NCBI RefSeq assembly: GCF_037154015.1
Contig: NZ_JBANRL010000001.1
Location: 1,302,001-1,366,000, forward strand
Source of the DNA: Altererythrobacter aquiaggeris
GTDB lineage: Bacteria; Pseudomonadota; Alphaproteobacteria; Sphingomonadales; Sphingomonadaceae
Length of the DNA: 64,000 nt
Reading direction: 5' to 3'
The translations under genes were made by a program, and so were the position numbers. Of this stretch, positions 2,232-8,015 are shown piece by piece. Every line of letters starts with the position of its first letter. Positions within the stretch are counted from its first letter, which is position 1. A model generated the notes under the pieces. That model ran no database searches. It had not been told where the DNA came from and worked only from the letters and a program-made list of their open reading frames with translations.

Positions 2232-3113
2232 ATGGCTACGGTTCTGCATTCCGCTCCCAAATCGGCGCCGCACGATGGCGTGATCGAAACGCTGGGCAAC
2301 GCGCTGGGCGATATGATGGTTGGCGCGCGCGAGGAATATGGCGAGCTCACATTCACCGTTCGCCGCGACGATATCGAAGACGTGCTGCGCCTGCTGCGCG
2401 ACGATCACGAATATCAGCAACTCATGGAAATTGCGGGGGTCGATTATCCGGATCGCGGTGAGCGGTTCGAAGTTGTCTATATGCTGCTGTCGCTCACGAA
2501 GAACCATCGCCTGATGCTCAAGGTTTCGACCGATGAAGCCACTCCGGTTCCGACCGCCACCCGCCTGTGGCCAAACGCAGGCTGGCTGGAGCGTGAAGTA
2601 TTCGACATGTTCGGTGTGCTGTTCGACGGCAATACCGATCTGCGGCGTATTCTGACCGATTACGGGTTTGAAGGGCATCCCTTCCGCAAGGATTTCCCGC
2701 TGACCGGCTACACCGAATTGCGCTATTCCGAAGAAGATAAACGGGTGGTTTATGAACCGGTCGAACTGGCGCAGGACCTGCGCCAGTTTGACTTCATGAG
2801 CCCTTGGGAAGGCGCGGATTACATTCTTCCCGGCGATGAAAAAGCCGGTGGCCCGCCTCAAGTGGACGAGCCAAAGACGACCGACAGCCCCAAGCAGACA
2901 GGCGCGGGAAAGAAGACGGACAAAAAAGCTGCCGAGACCGTGAGCGCGGGCGCCCCGGCAGAAAAGGCTTCGACTACAAAAAAGACTGCGCCGGAGCCGA
3001 CCGAAAATCGCCAGGCGCGCAAGCCCGGCAAAGGTAAAGTCAAAGACACCAAAGCTGCGACCAAGCCGGTGAAAAAGCCGAAGACGACAGCCGGGAAGGG
3101 TGACAAGACATGA
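2232..3113 (+). CDS. nuoC: NADH-quinone oxidoreductase subunit C with a basic tail
   Basis: This is the 30-kDa peripheral-arm subunit of complex I. The core (about residues 1-200) contains the family signature, including [16 protein letters not shown] and [19 protein letters not shown], which contacts NuoB and NuoD. The rest of the 293 residues is a low-complexity tail rich in Lys, Ala, Pro and Thr with no predicted fold. Ordinary NuoC proteins end near residue 200, so the tail adds some 90 residues. It runs in frame to a normal stop that overlaps nuoD by 4 nt (ATGA), so it is not a frameshift product. Its role is unknown. Confidence 0.95.
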
Positions 3114-4321
3114 GCGTCCAGCTTGAACAGTCGCCTACCACCGGCGATCAGTTGATTTCCAACTACACGATCAATTTCGGTCCCCAGCACCCTGCCGCGC
3201 ACGGCGTTTTGCGCATGGTGATGGAACTGGATGGCGAGATTATCGAACGCATCGATCCGCATGTCGGCTTGCTGCACCGCGGTACCGAAAAGCTGATCGA
3301 GCATAAGACCTATCTGCAGGCGCTGCCCTATTTCGATCGGCTCGATTACTGTTCGCCGCTGTGTCAGGAACACAGTTATGTGCTCGCAATCGAGAAGCTG
3401 CTGAACGTCGAAGTGCCCATCCGCGCGCAATATCTGCGCGTGCTGTTTGCTGAATTGACGCGTATTTCCAACCATATGCTCAATATCGGCGCGCATGTGA
3501 TGGATGTCGGCGCGATGACGCCGAACCTGTGGGTGTTCGAACTGCGCGAAGACTGCATGAACTTCTTCGAACGCGCGTCGGGCGCGCGAATGCACAGCGC
3601 TTATTTCCGTCCCGGCGGCGTCCATCAGGATGTGCCGCTGAAATTGCTCACCGACATTGGCGACTGGGTCGATGGCCGTTTGCCCGAACTGTTCGGCGAT
3701 GCGATGAGCCTGGTGATCGACAACCGCATTTTCAAACAGCGCAATGTCGATATTGCCGTGGTCGAAAAAGACGATGCGATTGCGTGGGGTTTCTCCGGCC
3801 CGATGATCCGCGGCAGCGGCATCGCATGGGATCTGCGCAAGTCGCAGCCTTATGACGTCTATGACCGCATGGATTTCGAGGTACCTGTCGGCACCAATGG
3901 CGATTGCTACGACCGGTTCATGGTCCGCGTGGAAGAAGTGAAACAGTCGGCCCGCATCATCAAGCAGTGCCTCGCAGAGATGCCTGAAGGCCCGATTGCC
4001 AGCGACGATATGAAGGTTTCCCCGCCCAAACGCGGCGAGATGAAACAGTCGATGGAAGCGTTGATCCATCACTTCAAGCTTTATACCGAGGGATTTCATG
4101 TGCCCGCAGGCGAAGTATACGTCGCAACCGAAAGCCCGAAGGGCGAGTTTGGCGTCTATCTGGTTTCGGACGGCAGCAACAAACCCTATCGCTGCAAAAT
4201 CCGCCCGACCGCCTTCAGCCACTTGCAAGCCATGGACTTCATGTGCCGCGGCCACATGCTGCCCGACGCAACCGCTATCCTCGGCGCAATCGACGTGGTG
4301 TTCGGGGAGTGTGACCGGTGA
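3110..4321 (+). CDS. nuoD: NADH-quinone oxidoreductase subunit D
   Basis: This is the 49-kDa quinone-site subunit of complex I, 403 residues, normal for the family. The N-terminus has [14 protein letters not shown], the loop lining the quinone pocket, followed by [11 protein letters not shown] and [12 protein letters not shown]; the C-terminus ends [10 protein letters not shown]. The ATG overlaps the nuoC stop by 4 nt. The stop codon in turn overlaps, by 4 nt (GTGA), the start of a small membrane-protein gene that intervenes before nuoE. Confidence 0.97.
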
Positions 4322-4500
4322 TCCTGCGCGAGTTGTTCATATTTATCGCAGCGTTTGCAGCATTCGCATCGGGCGTTGCGGCCTATCTTGCGGGATTTCA
4401 TGGCGGGGCGGGTTTGAAGGATATTCTCTCCACTGCATCGGCCGCCGTCATAGGCTTGTATGCCGGACGATACATCGAACGAAGGCTTATCAATGGCTGA
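4318..4500 (+). CDS. small membrane protein between nuoD and nuoE
   Basis: This is a 60-residue protein I do not recognise. It has a hydrophobic helix at about residues 5-26 (Ala/Phe-rich), a Gly-containing turn (FHGGAGLK), a second moderately hydrophobic helix at about 34-52, and the basic end [10 protein letters not shown]. Two features argue for translation: its GTG start overlaps the nuoD stop (GTGA) and its stop overlaps the nuoE start by 8 nt, a layout of translational coupling on both sides. Its position suggests a complex I accessory or assembly protein, but that is inference from context alone. Confidence 0.75.
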
Positions 4501-5161
4501 TCGCCAACTCGCACCCGACACACCTGAAACGCGCAAGCGGTGGGGTGATTTCAAATGGTCCACGGCCAATGCGGCCAAGGCCAAGAAATTTGTCGCGTCC
4601 TATCCTGAAGGCCGCCAGAAATCGGCTGTGATGCCGTTCCTCGATCTGGCCCAGCGGCAGGTTGGTGAGGAAACGGGCACGCAGGGCTGGTTGCCGCTGC
4701 CAGTGATGGAATTCATCGCCCGCGAGCTCGACATGCCGGTCATCCGTGTGCTTGAAGTTGCGACGTTCTATTTCATGTATAACCTTGTTCCGGTCGGCAA
4801 ATTCCACGTGCAGGTTTGCGGCACCACGCCCTGTATGCTGCGCGGATCGGACGATATCATGTCCGCTTGCAAGAAACGCGGTATGGAAATCGGCCACACC
4901 ACAGATGACGGTATGTGGACGCTGACCGAAGTTGAATGCATGGGCAATTGCGCCACTGCACCGATGGTCCAGATCAACGACGGCAATTACGAGGATTTGA
5001 CGGTCGAACGCCTCGACGCCGTGCTCGATGCGCTGGCGGCAGGCAAGCAGCCGAAAGAAGGCACGCAGGAGCCGGGGCGCAAAACGTCCGAGCCCAGCGG
5101 CGGCCCGACCACGCTGAAAGAAATGGTCGATGCCAATCATGATTACCGGAAGGCCTGGTGA
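4493..5161 (+). CDS. nuoE: NADH-quinone oxidoreductase subunit E
   Basis: This is the 24-kDa subunit of the NADH dehydrogenase module, 222 residues, carrying the off-path [2Fe-2S] cluster N1a in a thioredoxin-like fold. The four ligands are Cys109 and Cys114 (VCGTTPC) and Cys149 and Cys153 (ECMGNC). ATG at 4493 is chosen because GAAGG lies just upstream and the family's start follows. The last 40 or so residues (after ALAAGKQPKE) form a polar linker ending in TTLKEMVDANHDYRKAW, a short tail often seen in alphaproteobacterial NuoE. It overlaps its upstream neighbour by 8 nt and the next small gene by 1 nt. Confidence 0.96.
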   Translation: MADRQLAPDTPETRKRWGDFKWSTANAAKAKKFVASYPEGRQKSAVMPFLDLAQRQVGEETGTQGWLPLPVMEFIARELDMPVIRVLEVATFYFMYNLVPVGKFHVQVCGTTPCMLRGSDDIMSACKKRGMEIGHTTDDGMWTLTEVECMGNCATAPMVQINDGNYEDLTVERLDAVLDALAAGKQPKEGTQEPGRKTSEPSGGPTTLKEMVDANHDYRKAW

Positions 5162-5331
5162 TGGATAATACAGCCAAAGTCGGTCTGCCAGTTATCGGCA
5201 TAATCTTCCTCGTTCTGGCGGTGTATAAACTTCTCAGCGGTGAACCGTCCGTCGTCTGGTTTCTTTTAAGCTTCCTGTTTGGCGGGTTCGGGATTTTCAA
5301 GGCCGTAACCTCGGGAGGGCGTGAATCGTGA
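5161..5331 (+). CDS. 56-residue membrane protein between nuoE and nuoF
   Basis: This short gene starts at ATG 5161 on the last base of the nuoE stop codon (TGATG) and ends at TGA 5329-5331. The product is 56 residues with two clear membrane helices (about residues 8-25, [16 protein letters not shown], and 31-49, [16 protein letters not shown]) and a short polar end. A GGAAGG sequence lies 8 nt or so before the start. The stop overlaps the next small gene by 4 nt. I do not recognise the family. Its coupling to nuo genes suggests a role in assembly, stability or membrane attachment of complex I. Confidence 0.7.
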
Positions 5332-5468
5332 GCATTGTCACTCTCATCATCGCGCTGGTCCTCGCGTTCATCGCGTTCAAGGTGCTCAGCGGTATCCTGA
5401 AAATCGGCGCCATTCTCGGGATAATCCTGATCGCGGGCTACCTTTACTCGCAGGGGTATCTGACATGA
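5328..5468 (+). CDS. 46-residue membrane protein before nuoF
   Basis: The gene runs from GTG 5328 to TGA 5466-5468. A strong Shine-Dalgarno sequence (GGGAGGG, 5313-5319) precedes the start, which overlaps the previous small gene by 4 nt; the stop overlaps the nuoF ATG by 4 nt. The product is 46 residues, almost entirely hydrophobic: [18 protein letters not shown], then a Gly-rich second helix ending [10 protein letters not shown]. It could span the membrane twice as a hairpin. I do not recognise it. Coupling on both sides and its ribosome-binding site make chance occurrence unlikely. Confidence 0.7.
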
Positions 5469-6760
5469 GCCTTCAGGATAAAGACCGGATTTTCACCAAT
5501 CTCTACGGCTTCCAGGACTGGGGCCTGAAAGCTGCGCAGAAGCGCGGTGATTGGGACAACACCAGGGATATTATCTCCAGAGGTCACGATTCCATCATCG
5601 ACGAGATGAAGGCATCCGGCCTGCGCGGGCGGGGCGGGGCTGGTTTCCCTACAGGTATGAAATGGTCCTTCATGCCCAAGGAAAGCAAGGATGGACGGCC
5701 AAGTTTCCTTGTCATAAATGCCGACGAATCCGAGCCTGGTTCGTGCAAAGACCGCGAGATTATCCGGCATGATCCGCACAAGCTGATCGAAGGCGCGCTG
5801 GTTGCCGGATATGCGATGCGCGCACGCGCGGCCTACATCTACATTCGCGGCGAATATATCCGCGAAGCCGAAACGCTGCAGGCGGCCATCGATGAAGCCT
5901 ATGCCGCAGGTTTGCTGGGCAAGAATGCGGCCAAGTCGGGCTATGACTTCGATGTCTATATGCACCGCGGCGCGGGCGCATATATTTGCGGTGAAGAAAC
6001 CGCGATGATCGAAAGCCTGGAAGGCAAGAAGGGGCAGCCCCGACTGAAACCGCCATTCCCCGCCGGTGCCGGTCTCTATGGCTGCCCGACCACGGTCAAT
6101 AATGTCGAAAGCATTGCGGTTGTCCCGACAATCCTGCGGCGCGGCGCAAGCTGGTTCGCCAGCTTCGGACGCGAGGGTAATCATGGCACGAAGCTGTTCC
6201 AGATCAGCGGCCACATCGACAAGCCATGCGTTGTCGAAGAAGAGATGGGCATTCCGTTCAAGGAACTGATCGAGAAGCATTGCGGCGGCATCACTGGCGG
6301 CTGGGATAATCTGCTTGCGGTGATTCCGGGCGGCTCGTCGGTTCCGCTTGTCCCGGCGGACGAGATCATGGACGCCCCGATGGATTTCGACGGTTTGAAA
6401 GAAGTCGGCTCCGGCCTTGGTACAGCTGCCGTCATCGTCATGGACAAGTCCACCGACATCGTCCGCGCGATCAGCCGCCTCAGCTATTTCTACAAGCATG
6501 AGAGCTGCGGCCAATGCACACCGTGCCGCGAAGGCACCGGGTGGATGTGGCGCGTGATGGAACGGCTGCGCGAAGGTGACGCCGATGTCAGCGAAATCGA
6601 TATGCTATACGACGTAACGAAGCAGGTCGAAGGGCACACAATCTGCGCGCTTGGCGATGCTGCCGCATGGCCAATTCAGGGTCTGTTAAAGCATTTCAGG
6701 CCAGAAATCGAACGACGGATTGAACTGCGAAATGCCCGATATGCCGAGGCTGCCGAGTAG
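5465..6760 (+). CDS. nuoF: NADH-quinone oxidoreductase subunit F
   Basis: This is the 51-kDa NADH- and FMN-binding subunit, 431 residues. [18 protein letters not shown] is the FMN/NADH loop and [20 protein letters not shown] the second flavin-binding segment. Cluster N3 is bound by [12 protein letters not shown] and the distant Cys in [14 protein letters not shown]. The start at 5465 follows an AGGGG ribosome site and overlaps the preceding small gene by 4 nt. Unlike many alphaproteobacterial operons, nuoG does not follow directly: about 1.25 kb of other sequence intervenes. Confidence 0.97.
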
Positions 6761-6837
6761 ATTTCTGAACGGGGTGCTTGAACTTGTGATCCGGGGGCCG
6801 CTGGATTATATTCGCGCATATTTTGGGGAGACATTCG

Positions 6838-7596
6838 ATGATCAAAGAATTTTCCAGCGTATTCGGTATGGCGGCGGCGCTAGCGGTATGCACGCCGGTT
6901 GTGGCTCAAAGCCAGCCTACGCCGACGCCGACCCCGACCCCAAACACTCCGCGCGTTGACACCAGCAATATCACGCCGCGGAATTACCAGATAGAGCGGT
7001 TGGAGTTTGCCAAAGACCTGAACATGGATGTGGCGTTGGACAAGCCCGAGGCGGCGGTTGAATCCTACAAACGCGGGCTGGCAATTTCGGACTGCGTCAC
7101 GAAATCCGGTGAAGCCGATCTTACGGCGATGGTCGACGGGGAATTCGCCAAGTTCGGCATTTTTACGCGCCTGATGACCGGGATGCGCAAGGGGCACAGC
7201 TTTTGCGTCAAGTCGGACAAGCCCGCAATCCCGTTCTTTGTGAATGCCGCCATGAGCGAGCGGTACCTGCAATCGCTCGAGGCGGGTGATCAGGCTGGCA
7301 TGGCTAAAGCGGAAAATATGGGACAGGCCCGCTATTTCTTCATGGGCGGGAAGGACGATGTTTCGGTTTTTACAATCGGGCGCTGTGTGGCGGCATTGTC
7401 GCCGCAACTTGCTATGGATGTGCTGAAAACCGAGGTCGGCTCGGAACAGGAGATTTCGGCGCTCGACCGGTTGTATTCGGAAACGCCGCTGTGCGGGGTA
7501 AAATCGACACCGGGGAAAATCCCGTCAGCATTCCAGCGCGCCACTATCTCAACCGCGCTGTATGAGTGGCACCGCATCGCCAATACCGACACATAG
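6838..7596 (+). CDS. secreted protein of unknown function between nuoF and nuoG
   Basis: This is a 252-residue protein I cannot assign. It has a signal peptide (MIKEFSSVFGMAAALAVCTPVVAQS) followed by a threonine-proline repeat (PTPTPTPTPNTP), and then a globular region with several Cys residues (in SDCVTK, HSFCVK, GRCVAA and PLCGVK) that could form disulphides in the periplasm. ATG 6838 is chosen because GGGGAG precedes it and it places the signal peptide at the start; an in-frame TTG 15 nt upstream is less likely. The C-terminal 70 residues are clearly related to the fragment encoded just downstream. The gene is transcribed with the nuo genes. Confidence 0.8.
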   Translation: MIKEFSSVFGMAAALAVCTPVVAQSQPTPTPTPTPNTPRVDTSNITPRNYQIERLEFAKDLNMDVALDKPEAAVESYKRGLAISDCVTKSGEADLTAMVDGEFAKFGIFTRLMTGMRKGHSFCVKSDKPAIPFFVNAAMSERYLQSLEAGDQAGMAKAENMGQARYFFMGGKDDVSVFTIGRCVAALSPQLAMDVLKTEVGSEQEISALDRLYSETPLCGVKSTPGKIPSAFQRATISTALYEWHRIANTDT

Positions 7597-7902
7597 TTGA
7601 TTTCTGGCGGTTTTTTCATTGAAGTAGCCAATTCCATCGGGCTCACAGACCTAAAAATCCTTAAACCTGATATCGCTGTTTGCGCCGCGGCGGTCGCGGC
7701 GACATTCGGCCTGGCGATGGAGTTGTCCACCAGCGACGTCGGATCCGAAGATGAAAAACGCCGTTTGTATCCAATGTATTCGCAAACTCCCGAATGCCGG
7801 AAATCTGCTTCACCCAAAGGCGTGACGGTTGCCCTGCAGCGGGCAGCGATCGATGATCGAGTGGCTGCCCGCGACCTGGCGGGCGGCCCCATTTTTGTGT
7901 GA
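7597..7902 (+). pseudogene. decayed partial copy of the upstream secreted-protein gene
   Basis: The open frame directly after the secreted protein (TTG 7597, stop at 7900-7902) encodes a stretch that lines up with that protein's C-terminus: LAMELSTSDVGSEDEKRRLY with LAMDVLKTEVGSEQEISALD, then PMYSQTPEC with RLYSETPLC, then VALQRAAIDD with SAFQRATIST. It lacks the signal peptide and the first two thirds, has no good ribosome site, and its last codons are part of a terminator-like hairpin. The simplest reading is the remnant of a tandem duplication that has lost its 5' part. Whether any of it is translated cannot be told from the sequence. Confidence 0.65.
7863..7896 (+). terminator. terminator-like hairpin between nuoF and nuoG
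   Basis: A 10-bp GC-rich stem (7863-7872 with 7879-7888, one G-T pair, 6-nt loop) is followed by CCA and five T (7892-7896). It has the form of a Rho-independent terminator and lies inside the nuo gene series, 120 nt before nuoG. Confidence 0.65.
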
Positions 7903-8015
7903 TTTAGCGGCCGAAACGGGTTGCAAGTCCGGGGACTCTTCTACAGAGACATCCGGCAAAGAAGGTCGCTTCCGTTTTCGCATCGGAGCGCCATGGCTAG
8001 CGTAACAGGAAGCCC
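7903..8015 (+). promoter_or_regulatory. nuoG: gap before nuoG, possible internal promoter
   Basis: If the hairpin at 7863-7896 stops transcription, nuoG-N need a start site here. TTGCAA at 7921-7926 and TACAGA at 7942-7947 are a loose match to a sigma-70 promoter with a short 15-bp spacer, so I give it low weight. The nuoG ribosome site AGGAAG is at 8007-8012. Confidence 0.25.

Follow-up and report, generated by a model that had tools for sequence, protein, structure and literature searches.

Conserved operons can contain ORFans, i.e. young or foreign small genes inserted inside them, and the nuo/nqo operons of Paracoccus and Rhodobacter carry unidentified reading frames between the genes of complex I. 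Among respiratory proteins, CydX is described as a tiny hydrophobic subunit, which is functional yet highly tolerant of sequence change; oxidase activity requires it in Escherichia coli and in Shewanella, and it is conserved in more than 200 species (PMC6005532). The complex I of Paracoccus has been found to possess supernumerary subunits, namely NDUFS4, NDUFS6, NDUFA12 and a methyltransferase (PMC11522691). Regarding translation, 13 of the 14 gene pairs tested in other organisms were reported to show strict coupling through stop-start overlaps (PMC6728339). Here, we analysed a stretch of 64,000 nucleotides of Altererythrobacter aquiaggeris (contig NZ_JBANRL010000001.1, positions 1,302,001 to 1,366,000; hereafter the window), in which three open reading frames (ORFs) of 60, 56 and 46 codons, named P0001, P0002 and P0003, occur between nuoD and nuoF besides nuoE, as stated in a preliminary description of this DNA. 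P0001 occupies the nuoD-nuoE (D-E) junction, while P0002 and P0003 occupy the nuoE-nuoF (E-F) junction.

Similarly to the reading frames of Paracoccus and Rhodobacter, these genes are extra alphaproteobacterial ORFs without an assigned function among those of complex I, the contents here differing between congeners. Unlike simple ORFan insertions, the nuo slots have recurrent slot-specific families, with a hydrophobic pattern common in E-F. As compared to the gene pairs for which coupling was described, the nuo locus has likewise ATGA/GTGA and TGATG junctions and ribosome-site-like stretches inside the upstream gene; it differs from them in that the middle gene is repeatedly replaced, the overlaps being kept, and in that coupling is here predicted from the sequence. 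Like CydX, P0001, P0002 and P0003 are short hydrophobic proteins whose genes lie within a respiratory-complex operon, but the nuo small genes are patchy, exchangeable and often present in pairs or arrays. Similarly to NDUFS4, NDUFS6 and NDUFA12, they may be additions to a bacterial complex I beyond the 14 core subunits; the latter proteins are reported as subunits in a structure, whereas the nuo small proteins are hydrophobic, putative additions with no family match. A literature search, which covered part of the literature, found no account of these small genes or of the nuo slots. We propose, with about even confidence, that these genes encode optional and exchangeable membrane proteins that are accessory to complex I or help to assemble it, in junctions selected for unbroken translation.

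Hypervariable junctions on both sides of nuoE

Both gaps around nuoE are hypervariable, being filled, emptied and refilled among relatives, a feature that is not visible from the window sequence alone. It emerged from a set of 108 loci used for the analyses of contents, tree, E-F order and bridging, which comprises 8 loci of the order that lie outside the family, and in which three genomes are present twice (L004/L051, L005/L050 and L007/L083). The loci L001 and L002 (the window; the genome of L031 again) were omitted from the counts and kept in the ORF clustering only. The 97 non-duplicate loci of the GTDB family had 56 different D-E contents and 42 different E-F contents ("empty" included), with 18 D-E and 13 E-F gaps without any ORF. 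Over the 108 loci there were 56 and 43 contents, corresponding to 68 and 57 changes, respectively, on a NuoD plus NuoF tree.

Although complex I ranks with the most conserved enzymes, small membrane genes in its operon are swapped here from one congener to another, the overlaps with the neighbouring genes being preserved. Three congeners (the window genome, G001 and G002) have NuoE proteins 97% identical, the same last 30 nucleotides of nuoD, and nuoE 5' ends in which 29 or 30 of the initial 30 nucleotides agree; their D-E inserts, of 60, 90 and 94 codons, fall in three different clusters. One congener of the window has an empty E-F gap with a TAATG junction. The conservation in close relatives by which the preliminary description proposed to judge the small genes is mixed, the 60-codon gene having been found in neither G001 nor G002, and the 56- and 46-codon genes in G001 but not in G002. 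On the tree, the presence of P0001 requires 14 changes versus a mean of 21.4 (minimum 17) after shuffling, and that of P0003 also 14, versus 35.9 (minimum 29). Hence, both families are partly inherited, and often lost or transferred.

Unbroken chains of overlapping reading frames

In the window, the small genes belong to an array with the stop-start overlaps and ribosome-site-like stretches of translationally coupled genes at each of five junctions. The gene nuoD (3110..4321; Pfam PF00346 Complex1_49kDa, E 3e-119) overlaps P0001 (4318..4500; GTG start, 60 amino acids) by 4 nucleotides (GTGA), its last codons comprising both a Shine-Dalgarno-like site and the GTG(A) start of P0001 (junction GGGGAGTGTGACCGGTGA). 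An 8-nucleotide overlap links P0001 to nuoE (4493..5161; Pfam PF01257 2Fe-2S_thioredx, E 1.9e-51), the start of which (ATGGCTGA) gives the P0001 stop codon. At its 3' end (GGTGATG), nuoE offers the start of P0002 (5161..5331; ATG, 56 amino acids, two hydrophobic segments) through a 1-nucleotide overlap (TGATG). P0002, the first occupant of the E-F slot, shares 4 nucleotides (GTGA) with P0003, the second one (5328..5468; GTG start, 46 amino acids), and the P0003 stop is overlapped by 4 nucleotides (ATGA) of nuoF (5465..6760; Pfam PF01512 Complex1_51K, E 1.2e-48), all six genes being on the plus strand. The ribosome-site-like stretches are, on that strand, GGGGAG (4304..4309) inside nuoD, 8 nucleotides ahead of the GTG at 4318, GGAAGG (5148..5153) ahead of P0002 and GGGAGGG (5313..5319) ahead of P0003; GAAGG (4481-4485) precedes nuoE and CAGGGG (5451-5456) precedes nuoF. 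The spacer between the purine-rich stretch and the start is 7-8 nucleotides at all five junctions. Hence, the 1-8 nucleotide overlaps announced in the preliminary description, and the ribosome sites that it assigned to the 56- and 46-codon genes, are indeed there.

A filled gap was regarded as bridged when ORFs linked the stop upstream to the start downstream, each step of the chain being between -20 and +3 nucleotides. Dinucleotide-shuffled inserts served as controls, and this test is free of the overlap cost used in the ORF tiling (see below). Bridging was observed in 78 of the 82 filled D-E gaps (12.7 expected from the shuffles) and in 78 of the 88 filled E-F gaps (23.5 expected). Consequently, the best-supported mechanistic statement is that a filled junction would nearly always keep the ribosome moving. 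The preliminary description regarded the repeated coupling as hard to explain by chance, a view that agrees with bridging far above the shuffles and that does not extend to each overlap. In the family, the 3' ends of nuoD and nuoE usually offer a start codon after a purine-rich site, and the 5' end of nuoE, mostly ATGGCTGA, offers a stop codon, so that the single overlaps do not count as independent events. Where the D-E junction is filled, the end of nuoD is mostly CGGTGA, leading to a GTG start; where it is empty, this end is mostly CGCTAA, the nuoE start overlapping. The GGGGAG stretch of nuoD is conserved in both filled and empty D-E junctions of the family.

Such data would also suit an explanation that we consider unlikely, in which selection acts solely on the unbroken translation of nuoD-nuoE-nuoF, the peptides being by-products of little importance; DNA arriving between these genes would be retained mostly when an overlapping ORF can read it. 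First, the gaps containing only rare families (size at most 2) were bridged in 32 of 34 cases for D-E (5.8 in the shuffles) and 17 of 19 cases for E-F (6.3). Second, palindromic or dispersed repeats lying in gaps are read by ORFs that overlap both neighbours (L086:6666-6788, L100:6820-6948, L069:6666-6860, L037:6666-6872 and L079:5880-6005). The repeats of L037, L086 and L100 have further copies within their own locus, and those of L069 and L079 are partly palindromic, with stretches of 25-37 nucleotides common to other loci; in L100, the whole gap was not counted as bridged, the start of the ORF that precedes the repeat being too distant from nuoE. What speaks against mere sealing is that the recurrent families display purifying selection and invariant residues, that a given family is met again in one and the same slot in many genera, and that the hydrophobic pattern is slot-specific. 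From this protein-level conservation, the nuo linkage and the E-F hydrophobic pattern, the recurrent proteins are likely to have a function beyond sealing.

Families linked to nuoE and specific to one slot

The genome sets searched were samples, comprising 149 and 397 whole genomes of the GTDB family, and 289 of the class. Relatives of P0001 were found in 16 of the 149 family genomes, one in each, and all 16 are 5' of nuoE (the sixteenth is near a contig end and, on reading, also lies between nuoD and nuoE). Relatives of P0003 were found in 50 of these genomes, again one in each, and all 50 are directly 3' of nuoE. Relatives of P0002 were found in 14 genomes, one in each, of which 13 are directly 3' of nuoE. 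With a fourth E-F family (6 of 6 matches at nuoE), a total of 85 of the 86 matches of the four families adjoin nuoE. The P0002 relative that does not, in genome G081, is located at L116:4227-4520 on the minus strand, and the E-F gap of that genome has other small ORFs, a P0003 relative among them. Searching the 289 class genomes for P0003 yielded the window genome and two weak partial matches. Together, these data support the earlier proposal of lineage-specific genes, since in the genomes searched the families are tied to nuo, with hardly any member remote from nuoE, and, within the limits of the sampling, to a single bacterial family.

To describe the slot contents, we used an ORF tiling, the cost of which favoured short overlaps, for the clustering and the hydrophobic counts; "two hydrophobic segments" refers to a simple hydropathy count, not to a topology prediction. 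Two such segments occurred in 116 of 141 E-F ORFs (median length 57 amino acids), 31 of 110 D-E ORFs, 2 of 91 F-G ORFs and none of 19 C-D ORFs. The proportion in E-F was 69 of 93 when the P0003 family was removed, and the chance control gave 1 in 1354 spurious ORFs (40-70 amino acids, other frames of nuoD, nuoF and nuoG of the loci). The F-G ORFs were signal-peptide-like or anchored in 45 of 91 cases and devoid of a hydrophobic segment in 36. All 23 multi-member clusters were restricted to a single slot; with these and the 85 of 86 matches at nuoE, we met no movement between places such as an integron-like system of mobile cassettes would show. Within E-F, four small-protein families stand before P0003 in 25 pairs and after it in none, a fifth family being on either side (2 to 2). 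Single linkage grouped 65 E-F ORFs, but this grouping may reflect a shared hydrophobic composition, because the P0002 set and another E-F set showed no relation when their profiles, based on shallow alignments, were compared.

These contents bear on another explanation, which seems to us quite improbable, where the junctions would be permissive sites in which genes unrelated to complex I profit from the good expression of the operon, homologous recombination in the conserved nuo flanks exchanging them. It would account for the near-identical nuoD and nuoE flanks of the three congeners around D-E inserts of three clusters, and for the 56 and 42 distinct contents of the 97 loci. It also fits the 36 D-E singletons, the GC content of which at third codon positions (GC3) is 0.60 on average versus 0.77 for nuoE, as expected of young or foreign genes, and the 90-codon insert of G001, which has a clear match in one of the 397 family genomes (its own) and two weak others (E about 1e-3). 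Moreover, the slots contain SnoaL-like proteins and an FkbM-like methyltransferase (L081:6666-7526, NCBIfam E 2.8e-25), the latter being found in Aurantiacibacter luteus, where it precedes a P0003-like ORF in E-F. Conversely, the recurrent small families are not genome-wide but nearly always adjoin nuoE, the E-F contents are mostly uniform in size and hydrophobic pattern and largely so in order, and the GC3 deficit of the recurrent families is smaller (0.73, 0.76 and 0.77 for P0001, P0002 and P0003, versus 0.78-0.80 for nuoE). In the three congeners, identity at third codon positions tended to increase towards the slot edges (nuoD 3' and nuoE 5'), from which no conclusion on recombination can be drawn, since conserved ribosome sites explain these edges equally well. 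Searching PHROGs with 68 representatives matched 5 families, with one member each, and hence gave no sign of a general phage origin.

Selection on the three reading frames

We compared 80 loci from genome contigs and 30 from further relatives. In the P0001 family (23 sequences), the ratio of nonsynonymous to synonymous substitution rates (dN/dS) was 0-0.27 in the eight closest pairs, with synonymous to nonsynonymous changes of, for example, 9 to 0, 9 to 2 and 10 to 3. The mean ratio of the corresponding proportions (pN/pS) over all pairs was 0.36, versus 0.26 for nuoE. In the P0002 family (13 sequences), dN/dS was 0-0.60, mostly 0.23-0.40, among the pairs listed, and pN/pS was 0.44 versus 0.26 for nuoE. 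In the P0003 family (49 sequences), dN/dS was 0-0.52 in the 14 closest pairs. The invariant residues of P0001 include R4, E5, H28, K34, R51 and R56; in 39 aligned P0003 sequences K18 and G22 are invariant, and K25 is nearly so. Thus, the relatives of the three frames evolve under mainly purifying selection, and the synonymous-biased substitution sought in the preliminary description was found, dN/dS being mostly well below 1 in close pairs. From the low dN/dS in close pairs and the invariant residues, we conclude that all three ORFs are protein-coding. That they are spurious or untranslated intergenic sequence, as their short length, their lack of a named family and two GTG starts might suggest, is highly improbable in view of the purifying selection, the conservation across genera and the bridging far above the shuffles.

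AlphaFold2 modelled P0001 as a helical hairpin, with helices at 2-27 and 33-59 (mean predicted local distance difference test (pLDDT) 91). No above-cut-off match to Pfam or NCBIfam was obtained for P0001, P0002 or P0003, and the best match, that of P0002 to DUF6442, was below cut-off (E 0.021) and was rejected. Profile searches of PDB sequences with the small proteins returned chance matches only, Foldseek gave no match of the P0001 model at E 0.001 or better, and Rfam found no RNA reaching the gathering score in positions 4000-6000 of the window. A likeness to the supernumerary subunits of mitochondria, as suggested in the preliminary description, was not borne out, in that no NDUFS4, NDUFS6 or NDUFA12 family appeared among the Pfam and NCBIfam matches listed and there were chance matches only in the PDB. 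There was also no CydX family among the Pfam and NCBIfam matches listed for the three proteins, CydX itself not having been directly compared.

Other junctions, operons and families

Gaps of at least 60 bp were counted along the nuo operon, the NuoB query beginning at a non-start codon. They occurred in 2 of 70 A-B junctions, 12 of 73 B-C, 19 of 84 C-D, 81 of 107 D-E, 86 of 107 E-F, 62 of 83 F-G, 26 of 69 G-H, 12 of 57 H-I, 1 of 41 I-J and 0 of 11 J-K. Insertion is concentrated around nuoE, nuoF and nuoG, the products of which we take to be the NADH-oxidising module. At a threshold of 150 bp, gaps were found in 78 of 107 D-E and 62 of 107 E-F junctions, as compared to 5 of 26 for atpA-atpG, 8 of 25 for atpG-atpD, 0 of 28 for rpsM-rpsK, 0 of 28 for rpsK-rpoA and 7 of 27 for rpoA-rplQ.

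At the class level, the 30 best-scoring loci of 86 genomes with NuoE comprised the window, a second locus of its family and 28 further loci, 27 of which were measurable. These 27 loci, from 27 other families of the class, all had a D-E gap of -1 nucleotide or less and an E-F gap of at most 48 nucleotides. Among the 8 loci from other families of the order, one (L026) had an E-F insert, which indicates that the insert habit is not strictly limited to the family.

Proposed role of the small genes

We propose that the small ORFs are probably made from the nuo mRNA by termination-reinitiation, which would tie the output of the small proteins to that of NuoD, NuoE and NuoF. The two junctions flanking nuoE would operate as exchangeable slots where DNA is gained, swapped and lost, the arrangements that persist being mostly those in which overlapping ORFs form a continuous chain for the ribosome. 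All three genes of the window, like the other recurrent occupants, encode nuo-linked proteins, which most likely reside in the inner membrane and, in the manner of CydX, would serve complex I as optional partners, either accessory ones or ones for its assembly or stability. As regards the E-F slot, it appears that one small two-segment membrane protein can take the place of another from a different sequence family. We infer that the coupling, the membrane insertion, and a contact with, or an effect on, complex I may actually take place. The accessory- or assembly-subunit reading of the preliminary description is supported in part, as regards conservation, hydrophobicity and coupling-type arrangement; the three proteins are unlikely to be required subunits, because P0001, P0002 and P0003 were detected in only 16, 14 and 50 of the 149 genomes, respectively.

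Several observations weigh against the accessory-protein proposal. First, each small gene was undetected in most of the 149 family genomes and some loci have empty gaps, so that complex I evidently does without them; in addition, the P0002 relative of G081 is about 1.9 Mb from nuoE. Second, selection appears weaker in some comparisons, dN/dS reaching 0.7-0.8 in some distant P0001 pairs, and the all-pair pN/pS of P0003 being 0.63, well above the 0.27 of nuoE, with synonymous sites near saturation. Third, AlphaFold2 modelled P0003 as one long helix (3-41, mean pLDDT 96) and not as a hairpin, a fold that cannot therefore be claimed for all the small genes. Fourth, the same slots hold proteins without an obvious respiratory role (the SnoaL-like and FkbM-like ones), signal-peptide-like proteins and repeat-derived ORFs. 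Fifth, other nuo junctions also take inserts, which weakens the uniqueness of D-E and E-F, and the atpG-atpD gap of the window genome has a lipoprotein-like ORF with a 4-nucleotide overlap with atpG, indicating that coupled insertion is not unique to nuo.

A broader proposal, which we regard as possible rather than probable, is that the nuoE-flanking junctions are slots of gene birth and gene exchange. There, selection for translation continuity would turn inserted DNA, even palindromic repeats, into bridging ORFs, the E-F slot being repeatedly filled by unrelated two-segment microproteins of a core respiratory enzyme, arising within genera. If the microproteins touch complex I, the family would offer a natural series for studying the gain of supernumerary subunits. 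Otherwise, it would be a clean case of selection for uninterrupted translation alone making new ORFs. Either way, at least three unnamed families of small proteins can now be defined.

Additional features of the window cluster and of the atp locus

The remaining junctions of the window cluster, from nuoA to nuoN, range from -7 to +26 nucleotides (the nuoB start being approximate), F-G excepted. The F-G gap (6761-8015) is 1255 nucleotides long and contains further ORFs. Among them, a 257-codon ORF (6823-7596) has a signal-peptide-like start, and is directly followed after its stop by a 101-codon ORF that resembles by eye its C-terminal part and is perhaps a decayed tandem copy. The atpG-atpD ORF encodes 110 amino acids (L120:2364-2696); in some relatives, similar proteins occur at that place (L118, L135 and L136), and L122 has a different ORF. 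Finally, NuoC (window 2232-3113) has a long low-complexity C-terminal tail rich in Lys, Pro and Thr, the length of which probably varies, because the NuoC alignments between relatives cover 209 to 294 positions.

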